NCBI GenBank assembly: GCA_036378675.1
Contig: DASUWA010000023.1
Location: forward strand, 1 to 64,000
Origin: Acidimicrobiales bacterium
Lineage (GTDB): Bacteria > Actinomycetota > Acidimicrobiia > Acidimicrobiales > Palsa-688
Reading direction: 5' to 3'
Length of the DNA: 64,000 nucleotides
The position numbers were made by a program, and so were the translations under genes. Shown piece by piece: positions 8,479-30,326 of the stretch. The notes under the pieces were generated by a model that ran no database searches, had not been told where the DNA came from, and was given only the letters and a program-made list of their open reading frames with translations. Position 1 is the first letter of the stretch, and each line of letters opens with the position of its first letter.

Positions 8479-8493
8479 GGATAATAATCATCA
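8479..8493 (+). promoter_or_regulatory. island promoter element A (GGATAATAATCATCA)
   Basis: One of five copies of a TCATnATAATnATT-like element found before the transcription units of this island, here 19 bp before the aldehyde dehydrogenase ATG. The TAATAAT core would serve as a -10 box. Shared control by one regulator is inferred. Confidence 0.5.
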
Positions 8494-8512
8494 TCAATTA
8501 GCCGAGGTCAGC

Positions 8513-11262: not shown

Positions 11263-11277
11263 TCATCATAAGAAATA
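11263..11277 (+). promoter_or_regulatory. island promoter element B (TCATCATAAGAAATA)
   Basis: Copy of the island-wide element, oriented toward the amidohydrolase unit and 63 bp before its ATG. It sits in the divergent region shared with the SDR-DUF35 operon. Its 3' half is the weakest match of the five. Confidence 0.4.
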
Positions 11278-15135: not shown

Positions 15136-16314
15136 CTAGGCGGCCGGCTCGGCCGACGGCCGGGCCGCGGCCTCCCCGGCCGACCGCGAACGGATCATGC
15201 GCCGGACGGCCGAGCCGTCCCGGCCCCGTCCAATTGAGCCGCGGGTGCTGGCGATGGCCACCGCCACGATGAGGGCGACCCCCTGGAACAGCGGGCTGAC
15301 CCAGAACGCGCCCGCACCGAACTGGAGGCTGAGGCCCTGTATGCCGAAGGCCAGCGCGAAGTAGGCGATGAGCGTGCCCCACACATTCGGTCGCTGCGAC
15401 AGCTGGGAGGCCCCGAAGAACACCGCCGCCAGCGCCGGAAACAGATAGCCCTGACCGATGTCGCTCGTGTAGGCCCCGACCTGGGCGCTGTACAGCACCC
15501 CGGCCAGCCCGGCCACCGCACCCGAGACCACGAGCGAGCTCCACACGATGCCGTCCGCCCGGATGCCGGCGAGCCGGGCCGCCTCCCGGTTGCCGCCGAT
15601 GGCGAACATGCGCCGGCCCACCGGGGTGTGCTCGAGCACGAACCACATGACGGCGGCCAGGACGATCAGGTAGATGTCGAGGAACGGGATGCCTAGCACC
15701 TTGTTGTTCCCGAGGCCGACGACCGTGGTCGAGAACTTGCCGGCGATCTGGCGGTTCTGCGAGACGTACAGCTGGAAGGCGCTCAGGACCTGGGTCATGC
15801 CGAGCGTGGCGATGAGCGAGTTGACCCTCAGCTTCACCACGATGAACCCCGACACCGCCCCGATCAGCCCGCAGAACACGACGGTGCCGGCGGCCACGAC
15901 GCCGAAGGGGATGGAGGCGTGCTGGGAGAACCATGCCGTCAGGACGATCGACAGCGACATCATCTCGCCGACCGACAGGTCGTAGGTGTCCGTCGTCAGC
16001 GGCACCAGGAAGGCAAGCGCCAGGACGGCGGTGACCGCACCCTGAGAGAACACCAGCTGGGTGGTCCTGACGGTCAGAAACAAGTGGAACTTGAGCGCGC
16101 CGAATAGGACCAGGAACGTCAGCCACAGGTACACCGCGCTGAATCGGGTCAGGCTTGGTGGGGCCAAGCGCCGGGAACGCGATGCCGGAGCTGCCGGCCG
16201 TTGCTCGTTCCGACGCGCCGACCCGGTGGAGGGCCCGCACTCGCCGGCCGGGGAGGCCGTGGACGAGGTCCGTGACGTGGTGAGCGTCTGTAGCGTCATC
16301 TTCTTCGCCGTCAT
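15136..16314 (-). CDS. ribose-type ABC transporter permease
   Basis: A 392-residue inner-membrane protein of the BPD_transp_2 (RbsC/XylH) family with about 10 hydrophobic spans from residue 50 on. It has LRVNSLIATLGM and the C-terminal FGASQLSQRP/GTLIAYFALA region. It forms the channel for the periplasm-facing lipoprotein at 17889 and the ATPase at 16311. The gene overlaps the ATPase stop by 4 bp. Both ends (first 45 and last 30 residues) are Ala/Arg/Ser-rich extensions. Confidence 0.9.
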   Translation of the reverse strand: MTAKKMTLQTLTTSRTSSTASPAGECGPSTGSARRNEQRPAAPASRSRRLAPPSLTRFSAVYLWLTFLVLFGALKFHLFLTVRTTQLVFSQGAVTAVLALAFLVPLTTDTYDLSVGEMMSLSIVLTAWFSQHASIPFGVVAAGTVVFCGLIGAVSGFIVVKLRVNSLIATLGMTQVLSAFQLYVSQNRQIAGKFSTTVVGLGNNKVLGIPFLDIYLIVLAAVMWFVLEHTPVGRRMFAIGGNREAARLAGIRADGIVWSSLVVSGAVAGLAGVLYSAQVGAYTSDIGQGYLFPALAAVFFGASQLSQRPNVWGTLIAYFALAFGIQGLSLQFGAGAFWVSPLFQGVALIVAVAIASTRGSIGRGRDGSAVRRMIRSRSAGEAAARPSAEPAA

Positions 16315-17855
16315 CCTTTCGCCGCCGTGAGCTGATCGAGGTCGATCTTCTCGGGGGTCAGCTCGGGACCCCCTTCGAGGGTGCGGGCCACCCGGCCGCG
16401 GGCCATCACGAGGACCCGGTCGGAGAGGGCGGCCAGCTCGTCACTGTCGGTGGATATCAAGAGCACTGCCTTGCCTTCCGCCGCGCACCGGCGGATCACT
16501 TCGTGGATCTGGGCGCGGGCTCCGATGTCGATGCCGAGGGTGGGATCGTCGAGGACGAGCAGGCTGGGCGAAAGGCGGAGGGCTCGGGCCACGAGCACCT
16601 TCTGCTGGTTGCCGCCCGACAGGCTCGACATCGGCGCCTCGGTGCCCTGGGTCACGATTCCGAGGCTGCGGATCCATTCGTTCACTTCCTGTTGCTCCAA
16701 GCCGCGGCTGATCCGCCCGATCCGGCGGTGGCGGTCCAGGGCGGCGATGGTCGTGTTGGCCCGCACCGACATGGCCGGAAACACGCCGAACTGACCCCGC
16801 TCCCCCGGGATGGATGCCACACCGGCGGCCAGCGCCCGGCGGGGATCGCCGCCCGGGACCACCCGGCCGCCGACCGACACCGTGCCCCGCCGCGCCAGTC
16901 GGCCGCTGAGGAGCGGACCCAGCGACTCCCGGCCCGAACCGGTGATGCCGGCCACGCCGAGGATCTCGCCCGGCCGGATCGACAAGTCGACGTCCTCGAC
17001 CCGGGCGCCGGAAAGGCCGGCCACCTGCAATACGGGGGCCAGCTCCGCGGCGCCGGCCCGGGCTGCGGGGCCGCCGGCCGAGCCAGCCGGCCGGTCGCGG
17101 GAGCCGGGGCCGGCGTCGGCCAGAACGTGACCGACGATCAGCTCGGTCAGCCGGTCGTGGTCGAGCTCGCCTCGGCCCACCGACGCCACCACCGACCCGT
17201 CACGCAGGACGGTGATCCGGTCCGATATCTGCAGCACCTCGTCGAGATGGTGGGACACGAGTACGACGCCATGACCTTCGGCCCGGAGCCGGCCGATCAC
17301 GTCCAGAAGCCGGGCCACCTCGTCGGGAGGCAGGGCTGCGGTCGGCTCGTCCAGGACCAGCATGAGCCGCTCTCCCTCGGTGTCCATCAGCGCCCGGGCG
17401 ATGGCCACCCCCGTGCGTTCGGCCAGGCTGAGCTCGCTCACCGGGACCGACACATCGCCTGAAAGACCTAACCGGTCCAGGCACAACCGGACCCGGCGGG
17501 CGCTCTCGCCCCACCGGATCCGGCGGCCCAGCCCGGTCGGGTACGGCTGGCCGAGCATCATGTTCTCGAGAACGCTGAGTGACAGGACGAGCCCCAGGTC
17601 CTGGTGGACGAAGCGCAACCCGACGGCGCGGGCCGCCGCCCCGTGGCCCAGCTGGAAGGGCCGGCCGTCGATGGTGGCCGAAGCTCCCGGGTCGGGCTCG
17701 TGGTAGCCGGAGAGGACCTTGATCAGAGTCGACTTGCCCGACCCGTTCTGGCCCACGAGGGCGTGGACCTCCCCGAAGTCGGCTCTCAGGTCGACCGACC
17801 TGAGAGCCGTCTGTCCCGGGAACGTCTTGGAGAGCCCGGTGATCTGCAATGTCAC
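16311..17855 (-). CDS. ribose-type ABC transporter ATPase (two NBDs)
   Basis: A 514-residue RbsA/MglA-type protein with two nucleotide-binding domains. The first has Walker A GQNGSGKST (about 35-43), signature LSLAERTGVA and Walker B LMLVLDEPTA. The second has the degenerate P-loop GITGSGRES usual in RbsA proteins, a full signature LSGGNQQKV and LLVLDDPT. It energises import through the permease encoded just downstream (4-bp overlap). This transporter class usually carries sugars, but some members import sterol-like, lignin-derived or other small molecules. Confidence 0.93.
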   Translation of the reverse strand: MTLQITGLSKTFPGQTALRSVDLRADFGEVHALVGQNGSGKSTLIKVLSGYHEPDPGASATIDGRPFQLGHGAAARAVGLRFVHQDLGLVLSLSVLENMMLGQPYPTGLGRRIRWGESARRVRLCLDRLGLSGDVSVPVSELSLAERTGVAIARALMDTEGERLMLVLDEPTAALPPDEVARLLDVIGRLRAEGHGVVLVSHHLDEVLQISDRITVLRDGSVVASVGRGELDHDRLTELIVGHVLADAGPGSRDRPAGSAGGPAARAGAAELAPVLQVAGLSGARVEDVDLSIRPGEILGVAGITGSGRESLGPLLSGRLARRGTVSVGGRVVPGGDPRRALAAGVASIPGERGQFGVFPAMSVRANTTIAALDRHRRIGRISRGLEQQEVNEWIRSLGIVTQGTEAPMSSLSGGNQQKVLVARALRLSPSLLVLDDPTLGIDIGARAQIHEVIRRCAAEGKAVLLISTDSDELAALSDRVLVMARGRVARTLEGGPELTPEKIDLDQLTAAKG

Positions 17856-17888
17856 GGCGCGCCTCCTGCCCTTCTCACGGCCGTCCGG

Positions 17889-19085
17889 TCATCCGACCTT
17901 CCACAGCGCCTTGAACTGTTGCTCGTAGTTGGTCGGGCCGGGCCAGTTGCCGCTGTTGTCCGACAGCTGCGACCGGGCCTGCTGGGGGTTGGTCACGAGG
18001 AAGGCCTCGGGGTTGTCGCCGGCCGCCACGATGTCCGACGTCAGCGGCATCCCGACGGACAGCCGGGCCATCCAGTCGACCACGACCCACATCACGTACG
18101 GCTCCGGGAGGATCGACCAAGCGGACGACGTGCCGTCGATCATGGACTGGAGCTCGGGCTGCTGCGCCTCCTGGCCGACGATCTTCACCTTGCTGTCGAG
18201 GCCGGCCGTCTTCAGCGCCGACACTACGCCGGGGAAGAGGTCCTGGAAGGAGAGGTACACGTAGTTGACATTCGGGTGGGCCTGCAGGTACGACACCACG
18301 GCTGAGGGCGTCTGGCCGGCGCCGACCTGGGTGAGGCTGAGCGGGAGCACCCCTAGCGTGCAGGCCGGGCAATCCTGCTGGAACACCTGCTGGGCGACGG
18401 TTTGGCCGGCGTTCAGGGACGGGAAGATCGGAATGGTGACGTACACCGCGTTGGCATGCCCGTTCGAGTCGGAGATCATCCATTCCGGCAAGAGCTTGCC
18501 GGCGACGCCACTGGCAGCCACGTCCTGGGCCACCCCGTAGAGCCCATTGGCCGCCCCCTGGGGGACATCAGGCGTGTAGGCGCCGAAGATGGCAATCCCC
18601 TTCGCCTTCGCCTCTTGCAGCTGCGGGGTGATCTCGTTGAGCTGGATGCTCGTGGTGGCGATGTACTTGTTGCCCGCGTCGATCGCCTGTTGGACCGCCG
18701 GCCCGGGGGTCGCGGTGTTGTAGGTGATCACCGTGGGCTTCCAACCGAGCGCCTGCGCGGCGGCGATGAAGCCCGGGTTGAGCAGGCTGCAGGCGGTCTG
18801 CGAGCAGGTCAGGAAGGCGACCTTCGTGCCGGGCGCCGGGGCGTGGGGCAGCGGCTGCGTTTCGGGAATGGTCGAAGGCACGGTCTGCGCGGCCTTCACC
18901 GCGGCGGTGGCCGCGGCCACGCCTGAGGCACCGGTGGCGACCGCGGTGGTGCTGCTGTGCCCGGCGGAGGCGGCTGAGGGCGAAGCAGCGGACGCCGACG
19001 AGGACTTGGAACCTGACGAGCAGGCGGCCAGCCCGGTGAGGCACGCCAGACCGAGCGCGACTGCTAAGAGATGACGGGACTTCAT
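17889..19085 (-). CDS. sugar-type ABC substrate-binding lipoprotein
   Basis: A 398-residue Peripla_BP_4-like protein. The signal peptide ends in the lipobox LAAC (Cys22), followed by an 80-residue Ser/Ala-rich linker and the binding domain (KVAFLTCSQTACSLLNPGF, GNKYIATTSIQLNEI, EPYVMWVVVDWMARL). It captures the substrate outside the membrane. First gene of the four-gene leftward operon SBP-ATPase-permease-GntR. Its promoter element lies 141 bp upstream inside the end of the P450 gene. The CSQTACSLL start differs from ribose binders, so the ligand may not be a sugar. Confidence 0.9.
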   Translation of the reverse strand: MKSRHLLAVALGLACLTGLAACSSGSKSSSASAASPSAASAGHSSTTAVATGASGVAAATAAVKAAQTVPSTIPETQPLPHAPAPGTKVAFLTCSQTACSLLNPGFIAAAQALGWKPTVITYNTATPGPAVQQAIDAGNKYIATTSIQLNEITPQLQEAKAKGIAIFGAYTPDVPQGAANGLYGVAQDVAASGVAGKLLPEWMISDSNGHANAVYVTIPIFPSLNAGQTVAQQVFQQDCPACTLGVLPLSLTQVGAGQTPSAVVSYLQAHPNVNYVYLSFQDLFPGVVSALKTAGLDSKVKIVGQEAQQPELQSMIDGTSSAWSILPEPYVMWVVVDWMARLSVGMPLTSDIVAAGDNPEAFLVTNPQQARSQLSDNSGNWPGPTNYEQQFKALWKVG

Positions 19086-19218: not shown

Positions 19219-20445
19219 TTACTTAAAATGATTATGATGATCTTGCTCGACCGCTGGTCCGGCGGCCGGCACATCCCACTCGAGCGGGAGGGCCAGGATG
19301 GAGATCTGCCCCCCATGGGCCAGCACCTCGCGATCCGGTCTGATGCGGTAGTCCGGGATGCGCTTATGCCATTCCTCGATGGCGATGCACAGCTCGGCCC
19401 GGGCCAGGTGCGACCCGAGGCAGCGGTGCTCGCTCGCCCCGAAGGCGATGTGCCGGTTGGGCGAGCGGTCCAGCCGCACCTCTTGAGGATTCTCGAACAC
19501 GTCGGGGTCGCGCGTGGCCGACTGGATGCTGAGCAGCACCATGTCGTCCTTCTTCATGGGACAGCCGTGGAAATCGACGTCTTGTTTGACCTTCCGCGCC
19601 ATGCTCACGATCGGGTACGCCCGCAGGAACTCCTCCACCGCGCTCGGGATGATCGACGGATCCCGGACGACCCACTCCCGGTCTGTGGGGTGTGCTGCCA
19701 GGTGCCAGAAGCACCAGCCCAGCACGCTCTTGGTGGTGTCGAGCGATCCGAAGGCGAGTGTCATACAAGTGTCGAGCAATTCCTCGGAGTCGATCGGGCG
19801 GTCGTCGATCGTCACGCCCATGAGATGGGTGAGGAAGTCCTCGGCCGGGTCGAGCGGCTGCTTCTCGCGATCCTTTACCAGTTCGGAGAAGTAGGCCTTG
19901 ATGTCGTTCATGGCTCCCACCGGGTCCAAACCCACCGCCGTAACGGTGCCCGAGATCCGGTTGGCGCAGTTGATCAGGAAGGGCACGTCGGTTTCCGGCA
20001 GGTGGGCCGCGGAGGCGAAGGTCAGGGCCGGGAGGTAGTCGCCTATGGAGGTCATGAAGTCGGTGGCCCCCTCGGCGACCAGCCCGTCCACCAACCGGGC
20101 CGCGTAAGCGCGGACGGTCGGTGTGAGATCGGCCACCGCCTTCGGCGAGAACCAACGGTTGAGCGGCGACCGATACTTCATGTGTACCGGTGGATCGGTG
20201 TACGAAGGCAGGAAGCGGTAGGCCGGGTCGGGGTCGGTCGGCACAATCGAGTGGTTGCCGAAGATCTCGGGGGTCTGGAAGGCCTCGCGGATGTCGGCGT
20301 AGCGGGTGAGCACCCAATAGCCCTGGGCCTCCGTGTTCCAGAACCACCGGTGCCGTTCCCGCAGCTCGTCTATCTCCCGGAAGTGCGACCCGGGAGGGCC
20401 CACCTTCGCACTGAGGTCAAGATCGACTATCGGGTAGTCGGCCAT
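19219..20445 (-). CDS. cytochrome P450
   Basis: A 408-residue bacterial class I P450 monooxygenase. The heme loop FGASEHRCLG (Cys about 341), ExxR as EFLR and the I-helix segment FGSLDTTK are present; Ser replaces Gly in two motif positions (the heme loop and the I-helix GG). It inserts one oxygen atom using electrons from a ferredoxin, for which the 65-residue protein at 27798 is a candidate. A GAGGGAGGGGGA site precedes the ATG. It is divergent from the acyl-CoA dehydrogenase at 20529. Hydroxylation of an unactivated carbon of the imported substrate is inferred. Confidence 0.93.
   Translation of the reverse strand: MADYPIVDLDLSAKVGPPGSHFREIDELRERHRWFWNTEAQGYWVLTRYADIREAFQTPEIFGNHSIVPTDPDPAYRFLPSYTDPPVHMKYRSPLNRWFSPKAVADLTPTVRAYAARLVDGLVAEGATDFMTSIGDYLPALTFASAAHLPETDVPFLINCANRISGTVTAVGLDPVGAMNDIKAYFSELVKDREKQPLDPAEDFLTHLMGVTIDDRPIDSEELLDTCMTLAFGSLDTTKSVLGWCFWHLAAHPTDREWVVRDPSIIPSAVEEFLRAYPIVSMARKVKQDVDFHGCPMKKDDMVLLSIQSATRDPDVFENPQEVRLDRSPNRHIAFGASEHRCLGSHLARAELCIAIEEWHKRIPDYRIRPDREVLAHGGQISILALPLEWDVPAAGPAVEQDHHNHFK
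19226..19240 (-). promoter_or_regulatory. island promoter element D (TCATCATAATCATTT, minus strand)
   Basis: Copy of the shared element, oriented toward the ABC operon that starts at 19085. It lies entirely within the last codons of the P450 gene, where it encodes the run His-His-Asn-His-Phe. Confidence 0.5.
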
Positions 20446-20509: not shown

Positions 20510-20524
20510 TCATTATAATGATTC
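20510..20524 (+). promoter_or_regulatory. island promoter element C (TCATTATAATGATTC)
   Basis: The best copy of the shared element: TCATTATAATGA is a perfect 12-bp palindrome and contains the consensus -10 TATAAT. It ends 4 bp before the acyl-CoA dehydrogenase ATG, which has no ribosome-binding site, so the mRNA is probably leaderless. The divergent P450 has TTGACT just beside it on the other strand. Confidence 0.6.
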
Positions 20525-20528
20525 GCAT

Positions 20529-21770
20529 ATGAATGCCGGGGGGTCCGTCGAGGAGTTCGCGAACCAGGCGCGTAGGTGGCTTGAAACTGTGGCCAAGCAC
20601 CGTTCCGACCCCGTTGCCACTGGCTGGGCCGAAGGGTCCGACGATGTTTCGGTCTTCCATGACCTCACCGAGGACCAGGAACGCCTGCTGCTGCACGAAG
20701 CGATGGCATGGCAGCGGTTGAAGTTCGACGCCGGTTACGGAGCCATCTCGTGGCCGGAGGAGTTCGGGGGGCTCGGGCGGCCGGCGGAGTATGAAACGGC
20801 GTTCCGCCGGGTGGAGGCGGAATTCGAGGTGCCGCCGGGCCACGAGACCTTCTCGGTGACGGTCGGCCTCGTAGCCCCGACCGTCCGTGAGTTCGGGACG
20901 GAGCAACAGCGACAGGTCCTGATCCCCCGCTTCCTGCGGACCGAGGAGCTCTGCTGCCAGCTGTTCTCCGAGCCGGGGGCCGGGTCCGACCTGGCCTCGC
21001 TCTCGACGCGGGCCGAGCGCGACGGCGACTCGTGGGTGGTCCGAGGGCAGAAGGTGTGGAGCTCGGGTGCCCAGTTCTCGGCGTGGGGCGAGCTGATCGC
21101 CCGGACCGACGGGGGCGCCAAGCACGCCGGGCTCACCGCCTTCATGGTTCCTATGGACCTCCCGGGCGTGACGGTGAGACCCATCCGCCAGATGTCCGGA
21201 GGGTCCAGCTTCAACGAGGTGTTCCTCGACGACGTCCGGCTGCCCGACCGTCTTCGCCTGGGTGAGGTGGGCCAGGGCTGGAAGGTCGCGTTGACGACCC
21301 TCGGCTTTGAACGGGCCGGCAGTGGCGGCGGGCGGTCGGTGGGGGGTTCGTGGGAGCAGTTGCTGGCGCTGGCTCGCCATCTCGGCCGGAACGACGACCC
21401 GGTCGTGCGCCAGGAGCTGGCCCGCTGTTTCGCCAACGAACGGGTCCGCGGCTTCGTACGGGCGCGGGTCGAGCAGAACGCCGAGGCTGGCGGCGCTCCG
21501 GGGCCGGAAGGCTCGATAGGGAAGCTGCTGTGGACCCGGTCGCTGGCCGAGATCTCGCACATCGCGGGCGAACTGCTGGGTCCGCGCCTGACCGCCGACA
21601 GCGGCGAGTGGGGAACCTGGGCGTGGACCGCTCACGTCCTCGGCGCTCCCGGCTACCGCATCGCCGGCGGTTCGGACGAGATCCAGCACAACATCATCGC
21701 CGAGCGGGTGCTGAGGCTCCCGCGTGACCCGCGGCCCGTCATGGCCGCGCCCGAGGAGACGGACAAATGA
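20529..21770 (+). CDS. acyl-CoA dehydrogenase
   Basis: A 413-residue FAD enzyme that forms the alpha-beta double bond of an acyl-CoA. It has the flavin-binding SEPGAGSDLASL segment, a GGSSFNEVFLDDVRLP middle strand and a C-terminal YRIAGGSDEIQHNIIAERV. It resembles the FadE-type dehydrogenases of steroid and terpenoid side-chain degradation more than fatty-acid ones. The stop overlaps the CoA-transferase start (ATGA). It is the first of at least five coupled genes, 20529-25849. Confidence 0.9.
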   Translation: MNAGGSVEEFANQARRWLETVAKHRSDPVATGWAEGSDDVSVFHDLTEDQERLLLHEAMAWQRLKFDAGYGAISWPEEFGGLGRPAEYETAFRRVEAEFEVPPGHETFSVTVGLVAPTVREFGTEQQRQVLIPRFLRTEELCCQLFSEPGAGSDLASLSTRAERDGDSWVVRGQKVWSSGAQFSAWGELIARTDGGAKHAGLTAFMVPMDLPGVTVRPIRQMSGGSSFNEVFLDDVRLPDRLRLGEVGQGWKVALTTLGFERAGSGGGRSVGGSWEQLLALARHLGRNDDPVVRQELARCFANERVRGFVRARVEQNAEAGGAPGPEGSIGKLLWTRSLAEISHIAGELLGPRLTADSGEWGTWAWTAHVLGAPGYRIAGGSDEIQHNIIAERVLRLPRDPRPVMAAPEETDK

Positions 21771-23092
21771 CCACGACCGCGCCGAAGCACCCCGCTGTGG
21801 AGGCGCCCGCCGACGCGTCCCGCCGGCCCCGGGCCCGCCGCGGCCCGCTCGCAGGTATCCGGGTCGCCGACTTCTGCTGGATGGGGGTGGGAGCGGTGGC
21901 CACCCGGATGCTGGCCGACTTCGGCGCCGAGGTGATCAAGATCGAGGACCGGACCCGCATCGACATGCCGCGCCGGCTCCCGCTCTACAAGGGCGATCCC
22001 CGCAGCTACGGTGAGGAGCTCCCCGACGCCGACCCCGATCGCGGCGGCCTGTTCAACAACTACAGCCGCAACAAGCTCGGCGTCACCATCAACCTGCGGA
22101 CCGAACGGGGCCGGGAGCTGGCCTCAGAGCTCATCGCCGCCAGCTCCGTGGTGACCGAGAACTTCGCCCCCGGCGTGATGGAGCGCTGGGGCTTCACGTT
22201 CGACCGGTTGCGGGAGCTGGTCCCCGACGTGATCTACGCCCGCATGAGCGGGTACGGGCACAGCGGCCCCCATCAGCACTACCGCAGCTACGGACCGGTG
22301 GTGCAGGCCGCGAGCGGGCTCTCCTACATCGCTGGTCTTCCCGGCCATGAACCCTCCGGGTGGGGCCTGTCCTACATGGACAACATGGCGGCGTACTACA
22401 ACTCGGCCGCCATCCTCATGGCGCTACGGAACCGGCGGAAGACCGGCCTGGGAACGGAGATCGACGTCGCCGCGGTCGAGGTGGGCGTCAGCCTCATCGG
22501 ACCGATGCTGCTCGACGTAACCGTCAACGGGCACAGCACGCACCGCCCGGACTTTCCCACGGGCAACCGCCTCGAGCACCCGCAGGCGGCGCCGCACGGG
22601 GTGTACCCCTGCGCAGGAGAGGACGAGTGGGTGGCTGTCTCGGTCTTCGACGACGCGGGCTGGCAGGGCCTGGAAGCCGCGATGGGGCGGCCGGCGTGGG
22701 CGTCCCACCCGGAATTCGCCTCCCAGGCCTCACGATTCGCCCACCAGGACCGGCTCGACGGGTTCCTGGCCGGGTGGACCGGGGCCCGGGAAAGGCACGA
22801 GATAATGCACCTCCTGCAGGCCCATGGCGTGCCCGCGGCGGCGGTGCAGAACGCCCGGGATCTGACCGAGACGGATCCGCAGATCGCCGCCCACGGGACG
22901 TTCTTCGAGCTGGATCACCCGGTCATCGGGCCGGCCCGCTTCGAGGGCTTCCCGGTGATCATGTCCGGTGGGGGCGCGGATCACTGGCGTTCCGCGCCCT
23001 TGCTGGGCGAAGACAACAGTTATGTGCTCGGGGAGATCCTCGGGATCGGCGAGGAAGAGCAGCTCGAGCTCAGGATCGAAGGGATCATATGA
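21767..23092 (+). CDS. family III (CaiB/BaiF) CoA transferase, first of a pair
   Basis: A 441-residue enzyme that moves CoA between acids. It has LAGIRVADFCWMGVGAVATRML, VIKIEDRTR, the nucleophilic Asp233 in GTEIDVAAVEVG, and the NRLEHPQAAPHGVYPC segment before the C-terminal domain. A 25-residue Ala/Arg-rich N-terminal extension precedes the core. It overlaps both neighbours by 4 bp. No acyl-CoA ligase is present in the island, so it may activate the acid product. Adjacent paralogous CoA transferases can form one heteromeric enzyme, as BbsEF does. Confidence 0.9.
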   Translation: MTTTAPKHPAVEAPADASRRPRARRGPLAGIRVADFCWMGVGAVATRMLADFGAEVIKIEDRTRIDMPRRLPLYKGDPRSYGEELPDADPDRGGLFNNYSRNKLGVTINLRTERGRELASELIAASSVVTENFAPGVMERWGFTFDRLRELVPDVIYARMSGYGHSGPHQHYRSYGPVVQAASGLSYIAGLPGHEPSGWGLSYMDNMAAYYNSAAILMALRNRRKTGLGTEIDVAAVEVGVSLIGPMLLDVTVNGHSTHRPDFPTGNRLEHPQAAPHGVYPCAGEDEWVAVSVFDDAGWQGLEAAMGRPAWASHPEFASQASRFAHQDRLDGFLAGWTGARERHEIMHLLQAHGVPAAAVQNARDLTETDPQIAAHGTFFELDHPVIGPARFEGFPVIMSGGGADHWRSAPLLGEDNSYVLGEILGIGEEEQLELRIEGII

Positions 23093-24279
23093 ACGACGAC
23101 GCTTCGCCCGACCGGCGGCCGCTGCCGTACGACGGGTTGCGGGTGGTGGAGCTGGCCGGCGACCCGGCCGGCGAGCTGTTGGGGAAGCTCCTGGCCCAGT
23201 ACGGGGCGGACGTCGTCAAGGTGGAGCCCCCGGCGGGTTCCGCCACACGGCGGATCGGACCTTTCGCGGCCGGCCAGGAGGATCCCGACCGCAGCCTGAC
23301 CTTCTGGTACTACAACACCGGCAAGGCCAGCCTGGTGCTGGACCTGCCAGCCCAGCAGGCGGAGCTGGATGCGCTGCTCGACCGGGGCGACGTCGTCATC
23401 GTGTCGGCCCCGCCGGCCGACTTCCCCCGCCTCGGGATCGACCTCGGAACCTTGCCGAATCGTGAGCGGCTGATCTCATGCTGCATCACCCCCTTCGGCC
23501 TGACCGGTCCGTGGAAGGACTACCGCAGCTCGGACCTGGTGGCCTTGGCAGCAGGAGGCATCCTCAACAGCTGCGGCTATGACGACCATTCGATCCCGCC
23601 CATCCGGCCGGCCGAGAACCAGGCCTTCCACATCGCCGCCAGCTTCGCCCACCAGGCGGTGCTCCTCGCCCTCCTCGAACGGGACGCGACGGGAAGGGGC
23701 CAGACACTCGACGTGGCGATCCACGACTGCGTGGCCGTTAGCGGCGAACTGGCCAACCCGTTCTGGTTCTATCCCGAGGTGCTCGTCCAACGGCAGACCT
23801 GCCGCCATGCGCAGCCGGCACCGACGGCGCCAGCGTTGTTCGCCACTCTCGACGGGCGCTACGTGTACTTCGCCCTCGTTCTGGCCGACATCAAGCCTTG
23901 GAACGCCTTGGTCGAATGGATGGGCGCCCTGGGCATGGCAGCCGATCTGACCGAACCGGAGTACGCCCACCTGGTCCACCGCCAGGCCCGCTTCCCGCAC
24001 ATCCAGTCCATCCTCGAGGCCTTCTGCCTCGTACAGGATGCCGAGACGCTCTACCACGAAGGCCAGGCCCGCGGTCTCCCCATCGCGGTCGTCAACTCAC
24101 CCGACGAGGTGATACACGACGAGCACCTGTCGGCGCGTGGCTTCTTCCAGCGCGTCGAGCGCGACGGCGAGTTCGTGGGCGTCTACCCGGGGCCCCCGAT
24201 CCAGTTCTCCAGCTACCGGGCCGCACCGCCGACGCCTCCTCCCCGGCTGGGTGCGTCTGGAGGGGAGGTGTGGGGGTGA
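23089..24279 (+). CDS. family III (CaiB/BaiF) CoA transferase, second of the pair
   Basis: A 396-residue protein of the same family: LRVVELAGDPAGELLGKLLA, VVKVEPPAGS, NTGKASLVLDL and the nucleophilic Asp208 in GQTLDVAIHDC. It is shorter than its neighbour and lacks that N-terminal extension. The start is the ATG at 23089, which overlaps the upstream stop as ATGA; the longer open frame upstream is a shadow. It ends with a GTGA overlap into the DUF35 gene. Both paralogs keep the Asp, so either two activities or a heteromer is possible. Confidence 0.9.
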   Translation: MNDDASPDRRPLPYDGLRVVELAGDPAGELLGKLLAQYGADVVKVEPPAGSATRRIGPFAAGQEDPDRSLTFWYYNTGKASLVLDLPAQQAELDALLDRGDVVIVSAPPADFPRLGIDLGTLPNRERLISCCITPFGLTGPWKDYRSSDLVALAAGGILNSCGYDDHSIPPIRPAENQAFHIAASFAHQAVLLALLERDATGRGQTLDVAIHDCVAVSGELANPFWFYPEVLVQRQTCRHAQPAPTAPALFATLDGRYVYFALVLADIKPWNALVEWMGALGMAADLTEPEYAHLVHRQARFPHIQSILEAFCLVQDAETLYHEGQARGLPIAVVNSPDEVIHDEHLSARGFFQRVERDGEFVGVYPGPPIQFSSYRAAPPTPPPRLGASGGEVWG

Positions 24280-24701
24280 CCCCGCTGGCACCGCCGCCCT
24301 CCCCGCCCGGCCCGGCCGTGGCCGACGGGCTGTGGTCGGATTCCGACCCGCCCCGCCTGTTGGCCGGCTGCTGCCGCGACTGCGGGGCCTACTCCTTCCC
24401 GGTCCCCGACGCCTGCGCCCGGTGCTCGAGCGTGGACATCGCGGCGGAGAATCTGCCCCCCACCGGGACTCTGTGGACCTGGACCGTCCAGCGCTTCCAG
24501 CCGAAGGAGCCGTTCGACGGGGCCGAACCGTTCGCCCCCTACGGGGTGGGCTATGTCGATTTCGGGGGCAAGGTGCTCGTGGAGGGCCGGCTCGTCGAGA
24601 GCGACCCGCGGCGGCTGGCCATCGGGATGCGGGTGGAGACCTGCCTCGTGATGTACCGGCCCGGCACGTACACCTACGCATTCCGGGAGGTCCAGCCGTG
24701 A
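24276..24701 (+). CDS. DUF35 OB-fold protein with zinc ribbon
   Basis: A 141-residue thiolase partner. It has four ribbon cysteines (CRDCGA...CARC, about 32-50), then an OB fold (GTLWTWTVQRF, YGVGYVDFGGKVLVEGRL, GMRVETCLV). The GTG start overlaps the CoA-transferase stop, and its own stop overlaps the GTG of the thiolase gene, so it is translated together with that thiolase. DUF35 proteins deliver or position acyl-CoA substrates for SCP-x/Ltp enzymes. Confidence 0.88.
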   Translation: MTPLAPPPSPPGPAVADGLWSDSDPPRLLAGCCRDCGAYSFPVPDACARCSSVDIAAENLPPTGTLWTWTVQRFQPKEPFDGAEPFAPYGVGYVDFGGKVLVEGRLVESDPRRLAIGMRVETCLVMYRPGTYTYAFREVQP

Positions 24702-25849
24702 CGGCCACCGACGTCGCCATCGTGGGGATCGGCATGCACCGCTTCGGCCGGACCGACGGTGTGAGCGGCCGGGCCCAGGGCGCCCACGCGGTGCGGGCCG
24801 CCCTGCGCGACGCCGGGATCGAGTGGAAGGACGTGCAGTTCGCCTTCGGTGGCAGCGCCGCATCGGGCAACGCCGACACGCTCGTCAACGAGATGGGGCT
24901 CACGGCACTTCCGTTCATCAACGTAAGCAACGGGTGTGCCACCGGTGGCAGCGCGCTCACGGCGGCCGCCACCACGATCGCGTCCGGCGCCTACGACCTC
25001 GGTGTGGCGGTCGGATTCGACAAGCATCCGCGCGGCGCGTTCAACGCCGATCCCGAAGGCAGCGGGCTGGGCCGCTGGTACGGCCAGACCGGCATGATGC
25101 TGACGACCCAGTTCTTCGCCATGAAGTTGCAGCGCTACCTCCATGACCATGCGATGGGCCAGGACGTCCTGGCCGCCATCGCCGCCAAGGCCTACGCCAA
25201 CGGGTCGCTGAACGAGAACGCGTGGCGCCGGTCGGCCTTGACCGAGGACGAGATCACCGCCTCCCCGATGGTCAACGACCCGCTCACCCAATACATGTTC
25301 TGTTCGCCGGGTGAGGGTGCGGTGGCGCTGGTGCTGGCCCGGGCCGACCGGGCCCGCTCGTACACCAGCCGGCCCGTGTACCTGCGGTCGGTCAGCTTCC
25401 GGACCCGCCGCTACGGATCGTTCGAGGTGTTCAGCCCCTATCTGAGCCCGGACCGGGCTGACAGCCCGACGGTGGAAGCGGCCCGGGGCGCCTTCGACGA
25501 CGCCGGCGTCGGCGCCGATGAGGTGAAGGTGGCCCAGATCCAGGACACGGAAGCCGGGGCGGAGCTGATGCACATGGCCGAGACGGGGCTGTGCAAGCAC
25601 GGAGAGCAGGAGGCCATGATCACGGCCGGTGAGACCCGCATAGGGGGCTCGTTGCCCATCAACACCGACGGCGGTTGCATCGCCAACGGCGAACCCATCG
25701 GGGCCTCGGGGCTGCGGCAGATCTACGAGAACGTCCTGCAGCTGCGCGGCGACGCCGGGCCTCGCCAGGTTCCGGGCCGCCCCGACGTCGCGTTCAGCCA
25801 CGTGTACGGGGCGCCCGGGGTGAGCGCCTGCACAATCACAATCGTGTAG
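24698..25849 (+). CDS. SCP-x-type thiolase
   Basis: A 383-residue thiolase-fold enzyme. The nucleophile is Cys in VSNGCATGGSAL (about 84), the canonical SCP-x motif. The C-terminal motif is DGGCIANGEPIGASGLRQI. It likely performs thiolytic cleavage of a 3-ketoacyl-CoA with its DUF35 mate. It differs from the Ltp-like protein at 13040, which lacks both motifs. The start is the GTG overlapping the DUF35 stop. The stop codon lies inside a 14-bp tandem repeat array. Confidence 0.9.
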   Translation: MTATDVAIVGIGMHRFGRTDGVSGRAQGAHAVRAALRDAGIEWKDVQFAFGGSAASGNADTLVNEMGLTALPFINVSNGCATGGSALTAAATTIASGAYDLGVAVGFDKHPRGAFNADPEGSGLGRWYGQTGMMLTTQFFAMKLQRYLHDHAMGQDVLAAIAAKAYANGSLNENAWRRSALTEDEITASPMVNDPLTQYMFCSPGEGAVALVLARADRARSYTSRPVYLRSVSFRTRRYGSFEVFSPYLSPDRADSPTVEAARGAFDDAGVGADEVKVAQIQDTEAGAELMHMAETGLCKHGEQEAMITAGETRIGGSLPINTDGGCIANGEPIGASGLRQIYENVLQLRGDAGPRQVPGRPDVAFSHVYGAPGVSACTITIV

Positions 25850-25906
25850 GCACAGTCGTACAGGCGCAGTCGTATAGGGACAGTCGTATAGGGACAGTCG
25901 TATAGG
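25837..25906 (+). repeat. five tandem 14-bp repeats (CACAGTCGTATAGG type)
   Basis: Units at 25837, 25851, 25865, 25879 and 25893. The last two are identical apart from none of their 14 bases, and the first two are more diverged. The array starts in the thiolase coding end and runs to 23 bp before the SDR start, between two co-directional genes. It could be slippage or a multi-site binding region. Confidence 0.9.
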
Positions 25907-25928
25907 ACCCATCAGGGGGTGTTTGCCA

Positions 25929-26708
25929 ATGTCGCTGGAAGGAAGAGTTGCGGTTGTCACCGCCGGGAGCCGGAGCATCGGCCGGGGGGTGGCCGAAGGC
26001 CTTCTGTCGGACGGAGCTCGCGTTGTGATCTCCGGGCGGGACGAGGTGAAGGGCAAGCAGGCCCTGGAGGAGATGGGCGCGGGGGACCGGGCCACCTTCT
26101 TCTCCGCCGACGCGCGCCGCCAGGACGACACCGAGGCCCTGATCGACTTCGCCGTCGATCGGTACGGCCCGGTGGACATCCTGGTCAACAACGCCGGCGG
26201 TTCGAGCGGGTTCGCCCCGCTCGCCGAGTTATCGGACGAGGCGTGGCGGGAGGCCAACGACTGGATCCTCAACTCCGCCTTCTGGGCCACCCGCCGGGCC
26301 CTGCCGTCCATGATCGCCGGCGGGTGGGGGCGGATCATCAACATCTCGTCGCTCGAAGGCAAGCACGTGCTGCATCCCCAGGCCAGTCACTACGCAACGT
26401 TCAAGGCCGCCCTCAACGGGCTGACCCGTGCCGTGGCGGTGGAGTACGGCCCGGTCGGCATCACCGCCAACGCCATATGCCCGGGGGCGGTCGAGACCGA
26501 CCTGACCCGCACGGCGGGAGCCCAGGCGGCGGCCGCCGCCGGCATCAGCTACGAGCAGTTCCTCGAGGGCTACGCCGCCCAAGCGTTGACCAAGCGTCTC
26601 AACACCGTCGCGGAGGTCGCCGCCGTCGCCGCCCTCCTCGCGTCGGAGGCCGGGGCCGGGATCACCGGATCCACCATCAACGTCGACGGCGGAACGTCAC
26701 CGTGGTGA
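25929..26708 (+). CDS. short-chain dehydrogenase/reductase
   Basis: A 259-residue classical SDR with TAGSRSIG (about 10-17), NNAG, catalytic Ser in NISSLEG and the YATFK Tyr-Lys pair, and the C-terminal TINVDGG. It likely interconverts a hydroxyl and a ketone on a CoA thioester. The ATG at 25929 is preferred because GGGGGTG lies 8 bp upstream; a TTG six bases earlier is closer to the site. It is separated from the thiolase by the tandem repeats and converges with the kinase-like gene 20 bp away. Confidence 0.9.
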   Translation: MSLEGRVAVVTAGSRSIGRGVAEGLLSDGARVVISGRDEVKGKQALEEMGAGDRATFFSADARRQDDTEALIDFAVDRYGPVDILVNNAGGSSGFAPLAELSDEAWREANDWILNSAFWATRRALPSMIAGGWGRIINISSLEGKHVLHPQASHYATFKAALNGLTRAVAVEYGPVGITANAICPGAVETDLTRTAGAQAAAAAGISYEQFLEGYAAQALTKRLNTVAEVAAVAALLASEAGAGITGSTINVDGGTSPW

Positions 26709-26727: not shown

Positions 26728-27801
26728 TCAGACGCTGAGCGGCAGGGCCAGGCGGAGGGCCCGCTTGGCCAGAGACCCCACGAGCAGGCCCCTCTGGTAC
26801 ATGCGGTCGTCGCCGCTCTCGCCGATCGCATAGCGGTGGTACAGCTGCTGGCAGACGGTCGCCGTCCTCCAGCAGGCGAAGGCCTCGTACCAGCCGATGG
26901 TGTCCGTCGGGATCCCGGTGCGGGCGCCGTAGTGTTCGACGACCTCGGCGCGCGTCGGCAGGCCGATCCGCTCGAGCCCTTCCACGGACAGGGCCCGGTC
27001 AGCGGGGGTGTCGGCCGGGTCGGGCCAGTAGTTGAGGAGGGTGCCCAGGTCGGCCAGGGGGTCTCCCACGGTGGCCATGTCCCAGTCGAACACGGCGGTG
27101 ACCCGATCCGGCCGGCCCTCGGCGAACTGGCAATTGTCGGGCTTGAAGTCGTTGTGGATGATCGACGCCCCCGGCGACGCGGGGATTGACGCGCCGAGGA
27201 TGGTTGCTACCTCTTCCATCACCGGGCCGTGCTCTTCCGACGCCACGAGCCGCCACCGCTTGGTCCAGCCGTCGATCTGCCGCTGGACGTACCCGTCCGG
27301 CCGGCCCAGATCGGCCAGGCCCAGGGCGGCCGCATCGACGAGGTGCAGATCGGCGAGGGCGTCGACCACGGCCAGCCCGATTCGGCGGCCTGCCCCGGAT
27401 GTTTCGGCCATCGACGGCGGCAGCTCTCCCCACACCACCACGCCCGAGCGGTACTCGGAGACGACGAAGTCGCCGCCGATGACGTCATGGTCGTCGCAGA
27501 AGAGATAGGCCCGCGGAGCGCGGTCGTAGCCGCGCCACAGACGCGAGAGCACCCGGTGCTCTCGTCGCATGTCGTGGGCGCCCGGAGCCAGCCGGCCGAA
27601 AGGCGGTCGGCGCAGCACCAGGCGGAGCGGCCCGAACGACAGCTGATAGGTGAGGTTGGCCGATCCGTTGGGGAACTGCAGCACAGACATCGGGGCGGCC
27701 GTGTCCAGGCCCAACCTGGCCAGTTGCGGGCGCAGCCAGCCTTGGAGCCGGTCCCAGGCCAGTTCCTCGCCCGGGCGGACGGCCGCCGTCTCCGTGCTCA
27801 C
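26728..27801 (-). CDS. APH-family phosphotransferase (4-hydroxyacyl-CoA kinase candidate)
   Basis: A 357-residue protein kinase-like enzyme of the aminoglycoside phosphotransferase/ACAD10-11 N-terminal type. The catalytic loop is HNDFKPDN (about 215-222) and the metal loop FDWDMATVGDP (about 239-249). LVLRRPPFG near residue 64 carries the ATP-binding Arg region of this subfamily. It is encoded with an acyl-CoA dehydrogenase in one coupled operon (28900-26728). In the levulinate pathway and in ACAD10/11 such a kinase phosphorylates 4-hydroxyacyl-CoA before elimination. That role here is inferred. Confidence 0.85.
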   Translation of the reverse strand: MSTETAAVRPGEELAWDRLQGWLRPQLARLGLDTAAPMSVLQFPNGSANLTYQLSFGPLRLVLRRPPFGRLAPGAHDMRREHRVLSRLWRGYDRAPRAYLFCDDHDVIGGDFVVSEYRSGVVVWGELPPSMAETSGAGRRIGLAVVDALADLHLVDAAALGLADLGRPDGYVQRQIDGWTKRWRLVASEEHGPVMEEVATILGASIPASPGASIIHNDFKPDNCQFAEGRPDRVTAVFDWDMATVGDPLADLGTLLNYWPDPADTPADRALSVEGLERIGLPTRAEVVEHYGARTGIPTDTIGWYEAFACWRTATVCQQLYHRYAIGESGDDRMYQRGLLVGSLAKRALRLALPLSV

Positions 27802-27995
27802 CCCTCGATGAGCTCGACGGCCTGCTGGGGGCAGGCCAGGACCGCTTCCCGCGCGGCTGGGATCCCGTCCGGCTCCACCGGGATGGCCCGGTCCCGGATG
27901 GCGTAGCCGTCATCGTCGTACTCGATCATCCCGGGGGCGACCGAGTAGCAGCGCCCGTGGCCCACGCACTTGCTCGAATGCACAATCAGCTTCAC
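27798..27995 (-). CDS. 3Fe-4S/4Fe-4S single-cluster ferredoxin
   Basis: A 65-residue actinobacterial ferredoxin of the P450-partner type: CVGHGRCYSVAP followed by a C-terminal CPQQAVELIE. The His in the first motif, where a fourth Cys would sit, suggests a 3Fe-4S cluster. The start is GTG (VKLIVHSSKC) behind GAGAGGAG; the longer upstream frame belongs to the oxidoreductase on another frame. It is coupled to both neighbours by GTGA-type overlaps. It most likely passes electrons to the P450 at 19219; no ferredoxin reductase is in the window. Confidence 0.92.
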   Translation of the reverse strand: MKLIVHSSKCVGHGRCYSVAPGMIEYDDDGYAIRDRAIPVEPDGIPAAREAVLACPQQAVELIEG

Positions 27996-28903
27996 TTCGG
28001 AGACTCCTCTCTGGCTCGAAGCCCCAGATCGCTTGCGATCAGCGAAAGCCCGACCTGCTTCTCCTCCACCGTGCCGTGGGCCGGCCAGAGCTGGTCGGCC
28101 CATACGACCAGATGGTCGAAGCCCTCGACCCGGTAGGCTTCCACCGTCTCGGGGTCCGGCTTGGCGATCCGGACGTACACCTCGAATTCGCCGTGCCGCC
28201 CGTGCGCGGCGCGGCGGTCCAGCAGCTGGTCCCGGTACCGGCAGGCGTCGTCCAAGGAGGGGGTGGCGGAAGAGAACCAGCCGTCTCCCAGCCGGGCCGC
28301 TCGGTCGAGCGCGGCATCGGTGTTGCCCCCGAGGATCAAGGGGACCCGGACCGGATCGGAGCACAGCTGCAGTTGCTGGGCCCGGTAGTAGCGACCCTCG
28401 AAGTCGAACGGACCGCCCTGCCAGGCCGCCCTCATGTAGGCGATCGACTCGACCAGTCGCCCGTAGCGCTCGGCGAAGGGCACGTCTAGGGCATCGAACT
28501 CCTCGGTCAGCCAACCCGCCCCGAGGCCGAGCAGAAAGCGTCCGCCGGAGACGTCCTGGAGGGTATGGGCCATGCGGCCGGACAGGAGCGGATGGCGCAG
28601 CGGGAGCAGGTAGATGCCCGTCGCGAGCCGGATCCTCTCAGTCGCGGCTGCGCACGCCGCGAGAGCGACCAGGGGGTCGGTCAGCCGGGTGTCGGGCTCG
28701 ACGATGGGCGAGGTCCGTCTTTCGTGGGCTGCGGTGCCGGCCGTCGGGTGGCTGCTGCTGTATCCGACCGGGAGGGCGACATGCTCGCCCAGCCACAGCG
28801 ACTCGAACCCGGCCCGGTCCGCCTGGCGAGCCAGCTCCACCAGATCGGACGCCGACAGGTCGTAGGCGCAGACACCGATCGAGGTCTCGCCGGCGGAGGT
28901 CAC
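27992..28903 (-). CDS. LLM-class (F420-type) oxidoreductase
   Basis: A 303-residue TIM-barrel luciferase-like enzyme. Marks are LVELARQADRAGFESLWLGEH, IRLATGIYLLPLRHPLLSGR, the GRFLLGLGAGWL turn and VPLILGGNTDAALDRAARLGDGW at the far barrel side. Such proteins use F420 (or FMN) for hydride transfer or monooxygenation. The GTG start overlaps the acyl-CoA dehydrogenase stop (GTGA), and the stop overlaps the ferredoxin start. Choice of F420 over FMN is inferred from the actinobacterial subfamily look. Confidence 0.9.
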   Translation of the reverse strand: MTSAGETSIGVCAYDLSASDLVELARQADRAGFESLWLGEHVALPVGYSSSHPTAGTAAHERRTSPIVEPDTRLTDPLVALAACAAATERIRLATGIYLLPLRHPLLSGRMAHTLQDVSGGRFLLGLGAGWLTEEFDALDVPFAERYGRLVESIAYMRAAWQGGPFDFEGRYYRAQQLQLCSDPVRVPLILGGNTDAALDRAARLGDGWFSSATPSLDDACRYRDQLLDRRAAHGRHGEFEVYVRIAKPDPETVEAYRVEGFDHLVVWADQLWPAHGTVEEKQVGLSLIASDLGLRAREESPK

Positions 28904-30195
28904 GGCCGCCTGTGCTCGTTCAGGACGGCGGCGTACCGGGCCCGGGCCCGGGCTTCGAGCTTCGGCAGGTGCCGGCTGGGGAACAGGTCGTCCGTCGGCC
29001 GGTGGTCCTTGAGTATCTGCTTGGCCAGGGTGGTGCGGTGCACCTCGGTGGCCCCATCGGCCAGGCCCATGTGGTACGACTCGAGCACCCATTCGGCATA
29101 GGGCATCTCCCACGAGACGCCGAGCGCGCCGTGGATCTGCACCGCCCGGCTGGCCACGTCGTGCAGGACCTTGGGCATCACCGCCTTGACGGCAGAGATG
29201 TCTGCCCGCACCCTTTGGTAGTCCTCGTACGTGTCGATCTTCCATGCCGTCTGAAGGACGAGCAGCCGGAACTGCTCCAGCTGGATCCACGACTCGGCGA
29301 TCATGTCCTGGACCAGCTGCTTCTGGGCCAGCGTCTGGCCCTGGGTCCAGCGCGACAGGGCCCGCTCGCATATGTCGTTGAGGGCCTGGCGCACCAGGCC
29401 GATGGTACGCATGGCGTGGTGGATCCGCCCCCCGCCAAGGCGGGTCTGCGCCACCAGGAATCCCTCGCCCCTCTCCCCCAGGAGGTGATCGGCCGGGACG
29501 CGGACTTCGCGGTAGCGGACATACGAGTGAGTCCCGTGGCCTGGCTTGTGCCCGTACAGCCCGACGTTGCGTACGATCTCCACACCGGGCGTGTCAGCCG
29601 GTACCACGAACATGGACATGCGCCTGTGGCGGTGGGCATCGGGTTCGGTGACGGCGAGGAGTATCAGGAACGCGGCGAAGTTCGCGTGGGAAGAGAACCA
29701 TTTCTCCCCGTTGATCGCCCACTCCTCCCCGTCCAGCTCGGCTCGGGTCACGAAGCCGGTCGGGTCGGAGCCGCCGGCCGGTTCAGTCATCGAGTAGGCC
29801 GACACCGCCGTCTGGTCCAGGAGCGGCTTCAGATAGCGCTCCTTGAGATAAGGCGTGCCGAAGTGGGCGAGGATCTCGGCGTTGCCCGAGTCCGGAGCGT
29901 GGCAGCCGAACACGATGGGGGCGCAGTGCGAGCGGCCCAGTATCTCGTTGAGGAGGGCCAGCTTGACCTGGCCGTAGCCGGGACCGCCCAGCCGGGGGCC
30001 GAGGTGGCAGGCCCACAGGCCTTCGGCTCGCACCTTCTCCTGCAGGGGCGGGATGAGTGCCTGGCGGACCGGATCGGACATGTCCCAGGCATGGTCGATG
30101 ACCCGATCGACCATCTCGCACTCGTTGCGCACGAAGTCGTCGGCCCAGTCCAGCTTGGCCTGGAAGTCCGGGTCAGTGGCGAAGTCCCAACCCAC
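28900..30195 (-). CDS. acyl-CoA dehydrogenase (ACAD10/11-like context)
   Basis: A 431-residue FAD acyl-CoA dehydrogenase with MTEPAGGSDPTGF, EWAINGEKWFSSHANFA, GVEIVRNVGLYGHKPG and the C-terminal SYHMGLADGATEVHRTTLAKQ. The GTG at 30195 (VGWDFATDPDF) is chosen over an upstream ATG because AAGGGGGAAC precedes it and the upstream stretch contains the AT-rich promoter element. It is the first gene of the coupled leftward operon ACAD-LLM-ferredoxin-APH kinase. The kinase link suggests phosphate elimination from a 4-phosphoacyl-CoA as its reaction. Confidence 0.9.
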   Translation of the reverse strand: MGWDFATDPDFQAKLDWADDFVRNECEMVDRVIDHAWDMSDPVRQALIPPLQEKVRAEGLWACHLGPRLGGPGYGQVKLALLNEILGRSHCAPIVFGCHAPDSGNAEILAHFGTPYLKERYLKPLLDQTAVSAYSMTEPAGGSDPTGFVTRAELDGEEWAINGEKWFSSHANFAAFLILLAVTEPDAHRHRRMSMFVVPADTPGVEIVRNVGLYGHKPGHGTHSYVRYREVRVPADHLLGERGEGFLVAQTRLGGGRIHHAMRTIGLVRQALNDICERALSRWTQGQTLAQKQLVQDMIAESWIQLEQFRLLVLQTAWKIDTYEDYQRVRADISAVKAVMPKVLHDVASRAVQIHGALGVSWEMPYAEWVLESYHMGLADGATEVHRTTLAKQILKDHRPTDDLFPSRHLPKLEARARARYAAVLNEHRRP

Positions 30196-30221: not shown

Positions 30222-30236
30222 TGAAGATTATCATGA
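30222..30236 (-). promoter_or_regulatory. island promoter element E (TCATGATAATCTTCA, minus strand)
   Basis: Copy of the shared element, oriented toward and 26 bp before the GTG of the acyl-CoA dehydrogenase. GATAAT would be the -10 box. It is preceded on the same strand by CTAAT, as the reverse complement of element A is. Confidence 0.5.
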
Positions 30237-30326
30237 ATTAGCCACGACACAAGGGAGAGCCAACCAGGTGGGGTGGACAATCGCATCCTGAACCTGTGGA
30301 CCTCTCGTCAGAAGACGCTGCTAATC

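Follow-up and report, generated by a model that had tools for sequence, protein, structure and literature searches.

A kinase and an ACAD10/11-type dehydrogenase in a putative catabolic regulon of an actinobacterium

Introduction

Dehydroxylation of the ACAD10/11 type, in which a kinase phosphorylates a hydroxyl group and an acyl-CoA dehydrogenase (ACAD) eliminates the phosphate, is already known, and the substrates tested in the published work considered here are linear 4-hydroxy acids. These descriptions are recent: the mammalian work dates from 2024-2025, and the kinase/dehydrogenase route for levulinate was reportedly published in 2017. ACAD10 phosphorylates 4-hydroxy acids, those with the hydroxyl at C5 or C6 not being substrates, and phosphate elimination by ACAD10 and ACAD11 is redox-neutral, with no need for an external electron acceptor (PMC11342911). 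According to a study on ACAD11 (PMC12440821), residues R626, H634 and R637 hold the 4-phosphate, D753 acts as the base and substitutions abolish the ACAD step; in the kinase, D220 is catalytic, and R86 and R176 touch CoA in a modelled complex. Here we analysed a 64,000-nucleotide stretch (the window) of contig DASUWA010000023.1 from an Acidimicrobiales bacterium, a soil-type actinobacterium (assembly GCA_036378675.1), in which a kinase and an ACAD resembling these enzymes are encoded in one operon together with an LLM-class oxidoreductase and a ferredoxin. Taken as a whole, the locus is best explained as an operon of a catabolic regulon of approximately 20 genes with kinase/ACAD dehydroxylation, a reading that we consider probable.

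Results

The four-gene operon

The operon spans positions 30195-26728 on the minus strand, as seen in both the sequence and the translations. Its first gene (28900..30195, minus strand) has a GTG start and encodes a 431-amino-acid ACAD of the ACAD10/11/LvaC type in which the HCMR motif reads HAMR (PF00441, PF02770 and PF02771). It is followed, also on the minus strand, by genes for a 303-amino-acid LLM-class oxidoreductase of the TIGR03619 family (27992..28903; 202 bits against a curated cut-off of 167 bits, and also PF00296), a 65-amino-acid single-cluster ferredoxin with the CX5C..CP spacing of the P450 type (27798..27995; PF13459 and PF13370) and a 357-amino-acid predicted hydroxyacyl-CoA kinase of the APH/ACAD11 N-domain type (26728..27801; PF01636 at 142 bits). 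At 3 of 3 junctions a GTG start shares bases with a TGA stop, so the coupling by GTGA-type overlaps described in an earlier reading of this DNA (the original prediction) holds throughout, with its coordinates right. Together the four genes form a single transcription unit, which sits at one end of a larger catabolic cluster (about 8.4-30.3 kb).

A split counterpart of ACAD11

When compared with the PDB, the kinase matched 9o56 (8e-71) and the N-terminal domain of ACAD11 (8v3v, 1.5e-43), and the ACAD matched 4hr3 (2.9e-74) and the C-terminal domain of ACAD11 (8v3u, 4.7e-74), compared with 1.6e-41 for the best conventional ACAD. Judged by these similarities, each of the two separate proteins is the counterpart of one domain of ACAD11. 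Residues R252, H260, R263 and D380 of the ACAD correspond to R626, H634, R637 and D753 of mouse ACAD11, and the phosphate-handling residues and the catalytic Asp were unchanged in 49 of 49 homologues with at least 50% identity. In the kinase, the catalytic residues D218 and N223 and the CoA-contact residues R80 and R174 (D220, N225, R86 and R176 in ACAD11) were likewise unchanged in 91 sequences with at least 50% identity; both counts include duplicate copies of some contigs. The kinase also has the other features of its family, namely an APH fold and a metal-binding Asp in addition to the catalytic Asp and Asn and the CoA-contact arginines. The assignment of the two genes to a levulinate/ACAD10/11-type pair in the original prediction agrees with overall similarity and with every residue that has a published role. 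The pair is best read as phosphorylating a hydroxyacyl-CoA and then eliminating the phosphate, and we consider this reading very likely.

It is far less probable that the kinase acts on something other than a hydroxyacyl-CoA, such as a small alcohol, and that the ACAD is an ordinary dehydrogenase. Such a reading would fit the breadth of the APH-type superfamily, which has 23 matches in this genome, and the name of the closest kinase structure, 9o56, which is called only an aminoglycoside phosphotransferase. However, ordinary ACADs lack the phosphate-binding residues and the Asp base found in this ACAD, the kinase has invariant arginines for CoA contact and, as described below, the kinase gene adjoins the ACAD gene at many other loci.

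Recurrence of the gene set in relatives and on plasmids

We looked for the kinase in a set of 119 related genomes and in a genome collection at species level, and scanned the flanks of the matches with every protein of the cluster. Loci whose kinase had at least 56% identity were taken as orthologous (n = 41, or approximately 38 independent loci, because L113, L117 and L119 repeat contigs already counted) and compared with paralogous loci from the same clade of genomes (n = 17). Near the 41 orthologous kinases we found the short-chain-type dehydrogenase SDR1 in 26 cases, the ACAD in 25, an OB-fold protein and thiolase 2 in 21 each, thiolase 1 in 19, the two CoA-transferases in 14 and 15, the LLM protein in 12, a second ACAD (ACAD2) in 11, a GntR-type regulator in 10, a putative oxygenase in 9, the ferredoxin in 6 and the P450 and a SnoaL-like protein in 5 each. 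None of these genes was found near the paralogous kinases (0 of 17). The comparison demonstrates linkage, not function.

The order of the genes is shuffled. ACAD and kinase are adjacent in 28 loci, in the order ACAD then kinase; ACAD-LLM and LLM-kinase adjacency were seen once each, kinase-LLM in four Rhodococcus loci and kinase-SDR1-ferredoxin in four loci. The string ACAD-LLM-ferredoxin-kinase was seen in the window only: none of the 80 genome loci has it, nor do the 14 enlarged relatives or the 9 plasmid regions. The original prediction had called the combination one that it did not know and had proposed a search for a conserved four-gene order: the combination recurs, shuffled, in other actinobacteria and on Rhodococcus megaplasmids, and the search found the order in none of about 100 other loci. 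Among 72,556 plasmid records, four contained the kinase (E<1e-60) and four the LLM protein (E<1e-50), these being the same four Rhodococcus plasmids, and in two of the four the annotated cluster holds much the same functional set. The Rhodococcus megaplasmids (L145 and L146) carry fuller versions of the cluster and are large plasmids typed as mobilizable. Among culturable relatives, Thermomonospora echinospora also carries the cluster.

A promoter motif confined to the cluster

An AT-rich motif was chosen by eye by comparing the intergenic regions of the window, and its copies in the genome were counted by pattern search. The core, TCATNATAA, occurs five times in the window (0.13 expected), and the same five are the only copies in the 4.1-Mb genome; they fall in four promoter regions, all inside the cluster. 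One lies within a putative operator, CTAATTCATGATAAT, approximately 32 nt upstream of the ACAD start, before the four-gene operon (30227..30241, minus strand). Further putative operators with the core lie in the divergent promoter between SDR1 and the oxygenase (11263..11271, plus strand), inside the 3' end of the P450 gene approximately 150 nt upstream of an ABC importer operon (19232..19240, minus strand) and between P450 and ACAD2, where the palindrome TCATTATAATGA holds two core copies (20510..20521, unstranded). A related copy of the motif, CTAATTGATGATGAT, precedes the aldehyde dehydrogenase (ALDH) gene (8487..8501, minus strand), and a longer form of the motif, CTAATTSATGATNAT, has two copies genome-wide, at the four-gene operon (30227) and at the ALDH gene (8487). 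We counted 10 copies of the core in 40 orthologous loci, where 0.64 were expected, and most of them lie 50-250 nt ahead of a cluster gene; the paralogous kinase loci had none (0.36 expected). A scan for consensus sigma-70 promoters gave no match.

The motif looks like an undescribed operator, and the product of the GntR/FCD gene within the cluster (14250..15089, minus strand; PF00392 and PF07729) would be the natural candidate for its regulator. The recurring gene set and the shared motif together indicate that the four-gene unit is part of one conserved, probably co-regulated cluster, and the approximately 20 genes seem to be switched on as a single unit.

Three further ACAD10/11-like ACADs are encoded in the same genome (at G000:C13, G000:C23, 84-100 kb, and G000:C56). 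Two of them (C13 and C23:91 kb) have an adjacent APH-type kinase, and one lies near P450 genes. Given these additional copies, the kinase/ACAD module is common in this genome, and it is the surrounding regulon rather than the module itself that is the interesting part. The extra copies, two with a kinase of their own, also speak for the idea that the pair is a general salvage module for 4-hydroxy fatty acids or gamma-lactones (levulinate or 4-hydroxyvalerate) that is only loosely clustered with its neighbours, as do SDR-ACAD-kinase triads in varied catabolic clusters of Caulobacter, Massilia and Streptomyces. We regard this idea as unlikely: the orthologous pair accompanies one specific actinobacterial gene set under a promoter motif exclusive to that set in the genome and, with other pairs present, the pair in the window need not be the general one.

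The LLM protein and the ferredoxin

For the LLM protein, FMN- and F420-dependent enzymes matched about equally, both in sequence and in fold (AlphaFold model, pLDDT 85). Members of TIGR03619 are annotated as F420-dependent, and a gene for F420 synthesis is encoded in the genome. The protein is genuinely linked with the cluster, with orthologues at 12 kinase loci, and may use either F420 or FMN. The ferredoxin has as its best PDB match a ferredoxin-CYP143 construct (8amq), its cysteines are unchanged in 18 homologues, and it adjoins a P450 in the cluster of Rhodococcus DMU1. Because of its P450-type spacing, its match to a CYP143 partner and this adjacency, it most likely serves the P450 of the cluster.

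Surrounding genes

The cytochrome P450 (19219..20445, minus strand) is closest to CYP101J2 (5kyo, 1.6e-57), a 1,8-cineole hydroxylase, and to P450cam (about 1e-52). Its presence alongside CoA-transferases in one putative regulon, and the P450-type character of the ferredoxin, match the context that the original prediction had given for this operon. The ALDH gene (8513..9994, plus strand; PF00171) lies at the other end of the cluster, and two dehydrogenases of the SDR family are encoded at 10414..11217 (SDR1, minus strand; PF13561) and 25923..26708 (SDR2, plus strand). SDR1, the dehydrogenase most often linked to the kinase, is a candidate for an LvaD-like step.

A candidate for the amidohydrolase-related dinuclear oxygenases, a group with PtmU3, AibH2, SfbO and DitZ among its members, is encoded at 11341..12522 (plus strand) and matched DitZ (1.1e-34) and PtmU3 (1.8e-31) in the PDB. 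PtmU3 is a diiron hydroxylase that accepts CoA-bound diterpenoids, and a dinuclear metal site with six ligands (Asp, His, His, Glu, Asp and His) is known from AibH2 (PMC7782822). Matched by eye, D16, H18, H217, E275, D344 and H347 of the putative oxygenase correspond to these six ligands, and all six are invariant. DitZ was also the best match by Foldseek, at approximately 24% identity, which adds little beyond the sequence match because the model is weak (pLDDT 65). Copies with 55-81% identity occur near the kinase cluster in relatives. We also considered a lactonase role for this protein and dropped it in view of its top matches, DitZ and PtmU3, and of its complete set of six dinuclear ligands.

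Two family III CoA-transferases (21767..24279, plus strand; PF02515 in both) resemble the BbsEF pair, the first matching benzylsuccinate CoA-transferase (9fn0, 1.6e-64), and an OB-fold protein with thiolase 2 (24249..25849, plus strand; PF01796) resembles the BbsAB pair, matching benzoylsuccinyl-CoA thiolase (7pxp, 7.6e-42). Thiolase 1, of the lipid-transfer-protein type by family match (13040..14233, plus strand), probably partners with a zinc-ribbon/OB-fold protein (10002..10490, minus strand; PF01796 and PF12172). The cluster further encodes the SnoaL-like protein (12535..13011, plus strand; PF13577), ACAD2, which is not of the ACAD11 type (20529..21770, plus strand), and a sugar-type ABC importer comprising a binding protein, an ATPase and a permease (15136..19085, minus strand); ACAD2, the importer and SDR2 were assigned by family matches. 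Five tandem 14-bp units (CACAGTCGTATAGG) at 25837-25906 extend across the end of the thiolase 2 gene and the intergenic space ahead of SDR2, and IS3-like transposase genes (helix-turn-helix and integrase core) lie upstream of the cluster at 1532-2790.

Discussion

From the operon structure, the protein families, the active-site residues, the recurrence of the set and the shared promoter motif, all of which can be read directly in the DNA, we infer a series of reactions and their order. The P450, fed by the ferredoxin, would hydroxylate an imported substrate; the resulting alcohol would be oxidized by an SDR and the ALDH, and the two BbsEF-like CoA-transferases would turn the acid into a CoA ester, to which the DitZ/PtmU3-like protein may attach one more hydroxyl. 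SDR1 probably converts the keto form to the hydroxyacyl-CoA; it is the likeliest producer of the hydroxyl because of its linkage with the kinase/ACAD pair and the analogy to levulinate catabolism, in which the LvaD step is the model for this role. The kinase would then phosphorylate the hydroxyl of the CoA-bound acid, most likely at C4, and the ACAD would eliminate the phosphate, its FAD serving as a redox shuttle within the enzyme, to give a 2-enoyl-CoA usable by ordinary beta-oxidation, as in LvaA/LvaC and ACAD10/11. The two thiolase/OB pairs would cleave the chain or ring, and the LLM protein would contribute a single redox reaction on an intermediate that is a ketone or an alcohol.

The substrate proposed in the original prediction, an oxygenated branched or ring acid, is plausible, and the resemblances of the P450 and the oxygenase suggest a cyclic terpenoid-like acid as the likeliest class. 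Tentatively, then, the cluster could represent an undescribed, widespread actinobacterial pathway for such an acid, combining in one regulon the P450/ferredoxin and DitZ-like oxygenase, the CoA-transferases, ATP-dependent removal of a gamma-hydroxyl by the HAMR-type kinase/ACAD pair and the LLM protein; the gamma-hydroxyl removed would be the block to beta-oxidation. We hold this full version to be possible, with less confidence than the general reading above.

A more specific form of the same explanation would set all four genes of the operon in sequence by making the LLM protein a type II Baeyer-Villiger enzyme: the P450 and an SDR would give a cyclic ketone, the LLM protein a lactone, and the 4-hydroxy acid-CoA formed on opening would be dehydroxylated by the kinase and the ACAD. 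Such chemistry would account for the presence of LLM, ferredoxin, kinase and ACAD in one operon, and it is consistent with the camphor- and cineole-type enzymes closest to the P450 and with the membership of 3,6-diketocamphane monooxygenase in the LLM superfamily (4uwm, a weak match to the LLM protein at 8e-6). However, the F420 annotation of TIGR03619, the F420 synthesis encoded in the genome and the even balance of F420 and FMN matches do not single out such an enzyme, neither a lactonase nor a flavin reductase was found in the cluster, and the amidohydrolase resembles an oxygenase. This route therefore seems to us rather improbable, and we prefer the regulon with kinase/ACAD dehydroxylation and a less specified redox role for the LLM protein.

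Several observations weigh against that preferred reading or parts of it. The ACAD does not have a strict HCMR motif, with HAMR in the window protein and in 49 of 49 homologues. The Cys is kept in 16 of 20 more distant ACADs near these kinases, and because HAMR is found in all 49 and mostly HCMR in the more distant set, the HAMR proteins appear to be a sister clade; this Cys is not known from PMC12440821 to be essential. Although not a strict HCMR member, the HAMR variant should work in the same way as ACAD10/11. The clade has orthologues in L031-L111, and HAMR is also seen in the solved structure 4hr3. Orthologues of the P450 and the ferredoxin are present in only 5-6 of the 41 loci, partly because the loci were cut at about 8 kb, and no gene for a ferredoxin reductase was recognized in the cluster. 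A PDR/VanB-type reductase in the Rhodococcus megaplasmid clusters could serve their P450 and ferredoxin. The motif count in the window is partly circular, as the motif was picked by eye from promoters there; the site at 19232, the exclusivity across the genome and the copies in relatives are independent of that choice. Finally, the CYP101-type P450 and DitZ/PtmU3 resemblances that point to a substrate class are both distant.

If the pathway for a cyclic terpenoid-like acid is real, ACAD10/11 chemistry would reach beyond linear 4-hydroxy acids to acids derived from rings. A conserved regulon in which dehydroxylation is coupled with oxygenases and CoA-transferases would demonstrate that bacteria apply this chemistry to more complex molecules. 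Such a regulon would also provide a gene signature by which similar pathways could be found, and a system in which to study how the ACAD step works and what orphan LLM and amidohydrolase-type oxygenases do.

Comparison with known systems

No described cluster of this make-up was found in the open literature searched. DitZ and PtmU3 of the dit and ptm systems and the BbsEF and BbsAB proteins are the best solved relatives of the amidohydrolase, the CoA-transferases and thiolase 2, but the likeness to the dit/ptm and toluene pathways is limited to single enzymes, and the whole pathways differ. Two described clusters were set aside: the abietane dit cluster, with which only the DitZ resemblance is shared and whose ring-hydroxylating dioxygenase has no counterpart in the window cluster, and the oestrogen-degradation (aed) cluster, to which the appearance of Rhodococcus and Novosphingobium loci had drawn attention and whose ring-cleavage dioxygenase, ligase and decarboxylase, as given in a review, do not match the set.

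Close counterparts are the megaplasmid clusters of Rhodococcus DMU1 (NZ_CP050953) and R. opacus DSM 44186 (NZ_CP082159), for which no characterized substrate was found. Both share the kinase, the ACAD, the LLM protein (47-50% identity), SDR1, two CoA-transferases, two thiolase/OB pairs and a P450, and that of DMU1 alone also shares the ferredoxin and the GntR regulator. They differ from the window cluster in gene order, in an added reductase and CoA ligase, and in a P450 that is only approximately 28% identical.

Mammalian ACAD10 and ACAD11 share with the window pair a kinase domain and an ACAD domain, the Asp base and the equivalents of R626, H634 and R637, whereas the window has two separate proteins, a catabolic cluster around them and the HAMR variant. 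The lva operon of Pseudomonas putida, which also encodes the accessory protein LvaB, likewise has separate kinase (LvaA) and ACAD (LvaC) genes in one operon, a CoA-bound hydroxy acid as the expected substrate and the same functional ACAD residues, a likeness drawn from published features. In contrast to lva, which uses a CoA ligase (LvaE) and has HCMR in its ACAD, the window cluster has family III CoA-transferases and HAMR, and it adds the P450, the ferredoxin, the LLM protein, the DitZ-like oxygenase and the thiolase/OB pairs.

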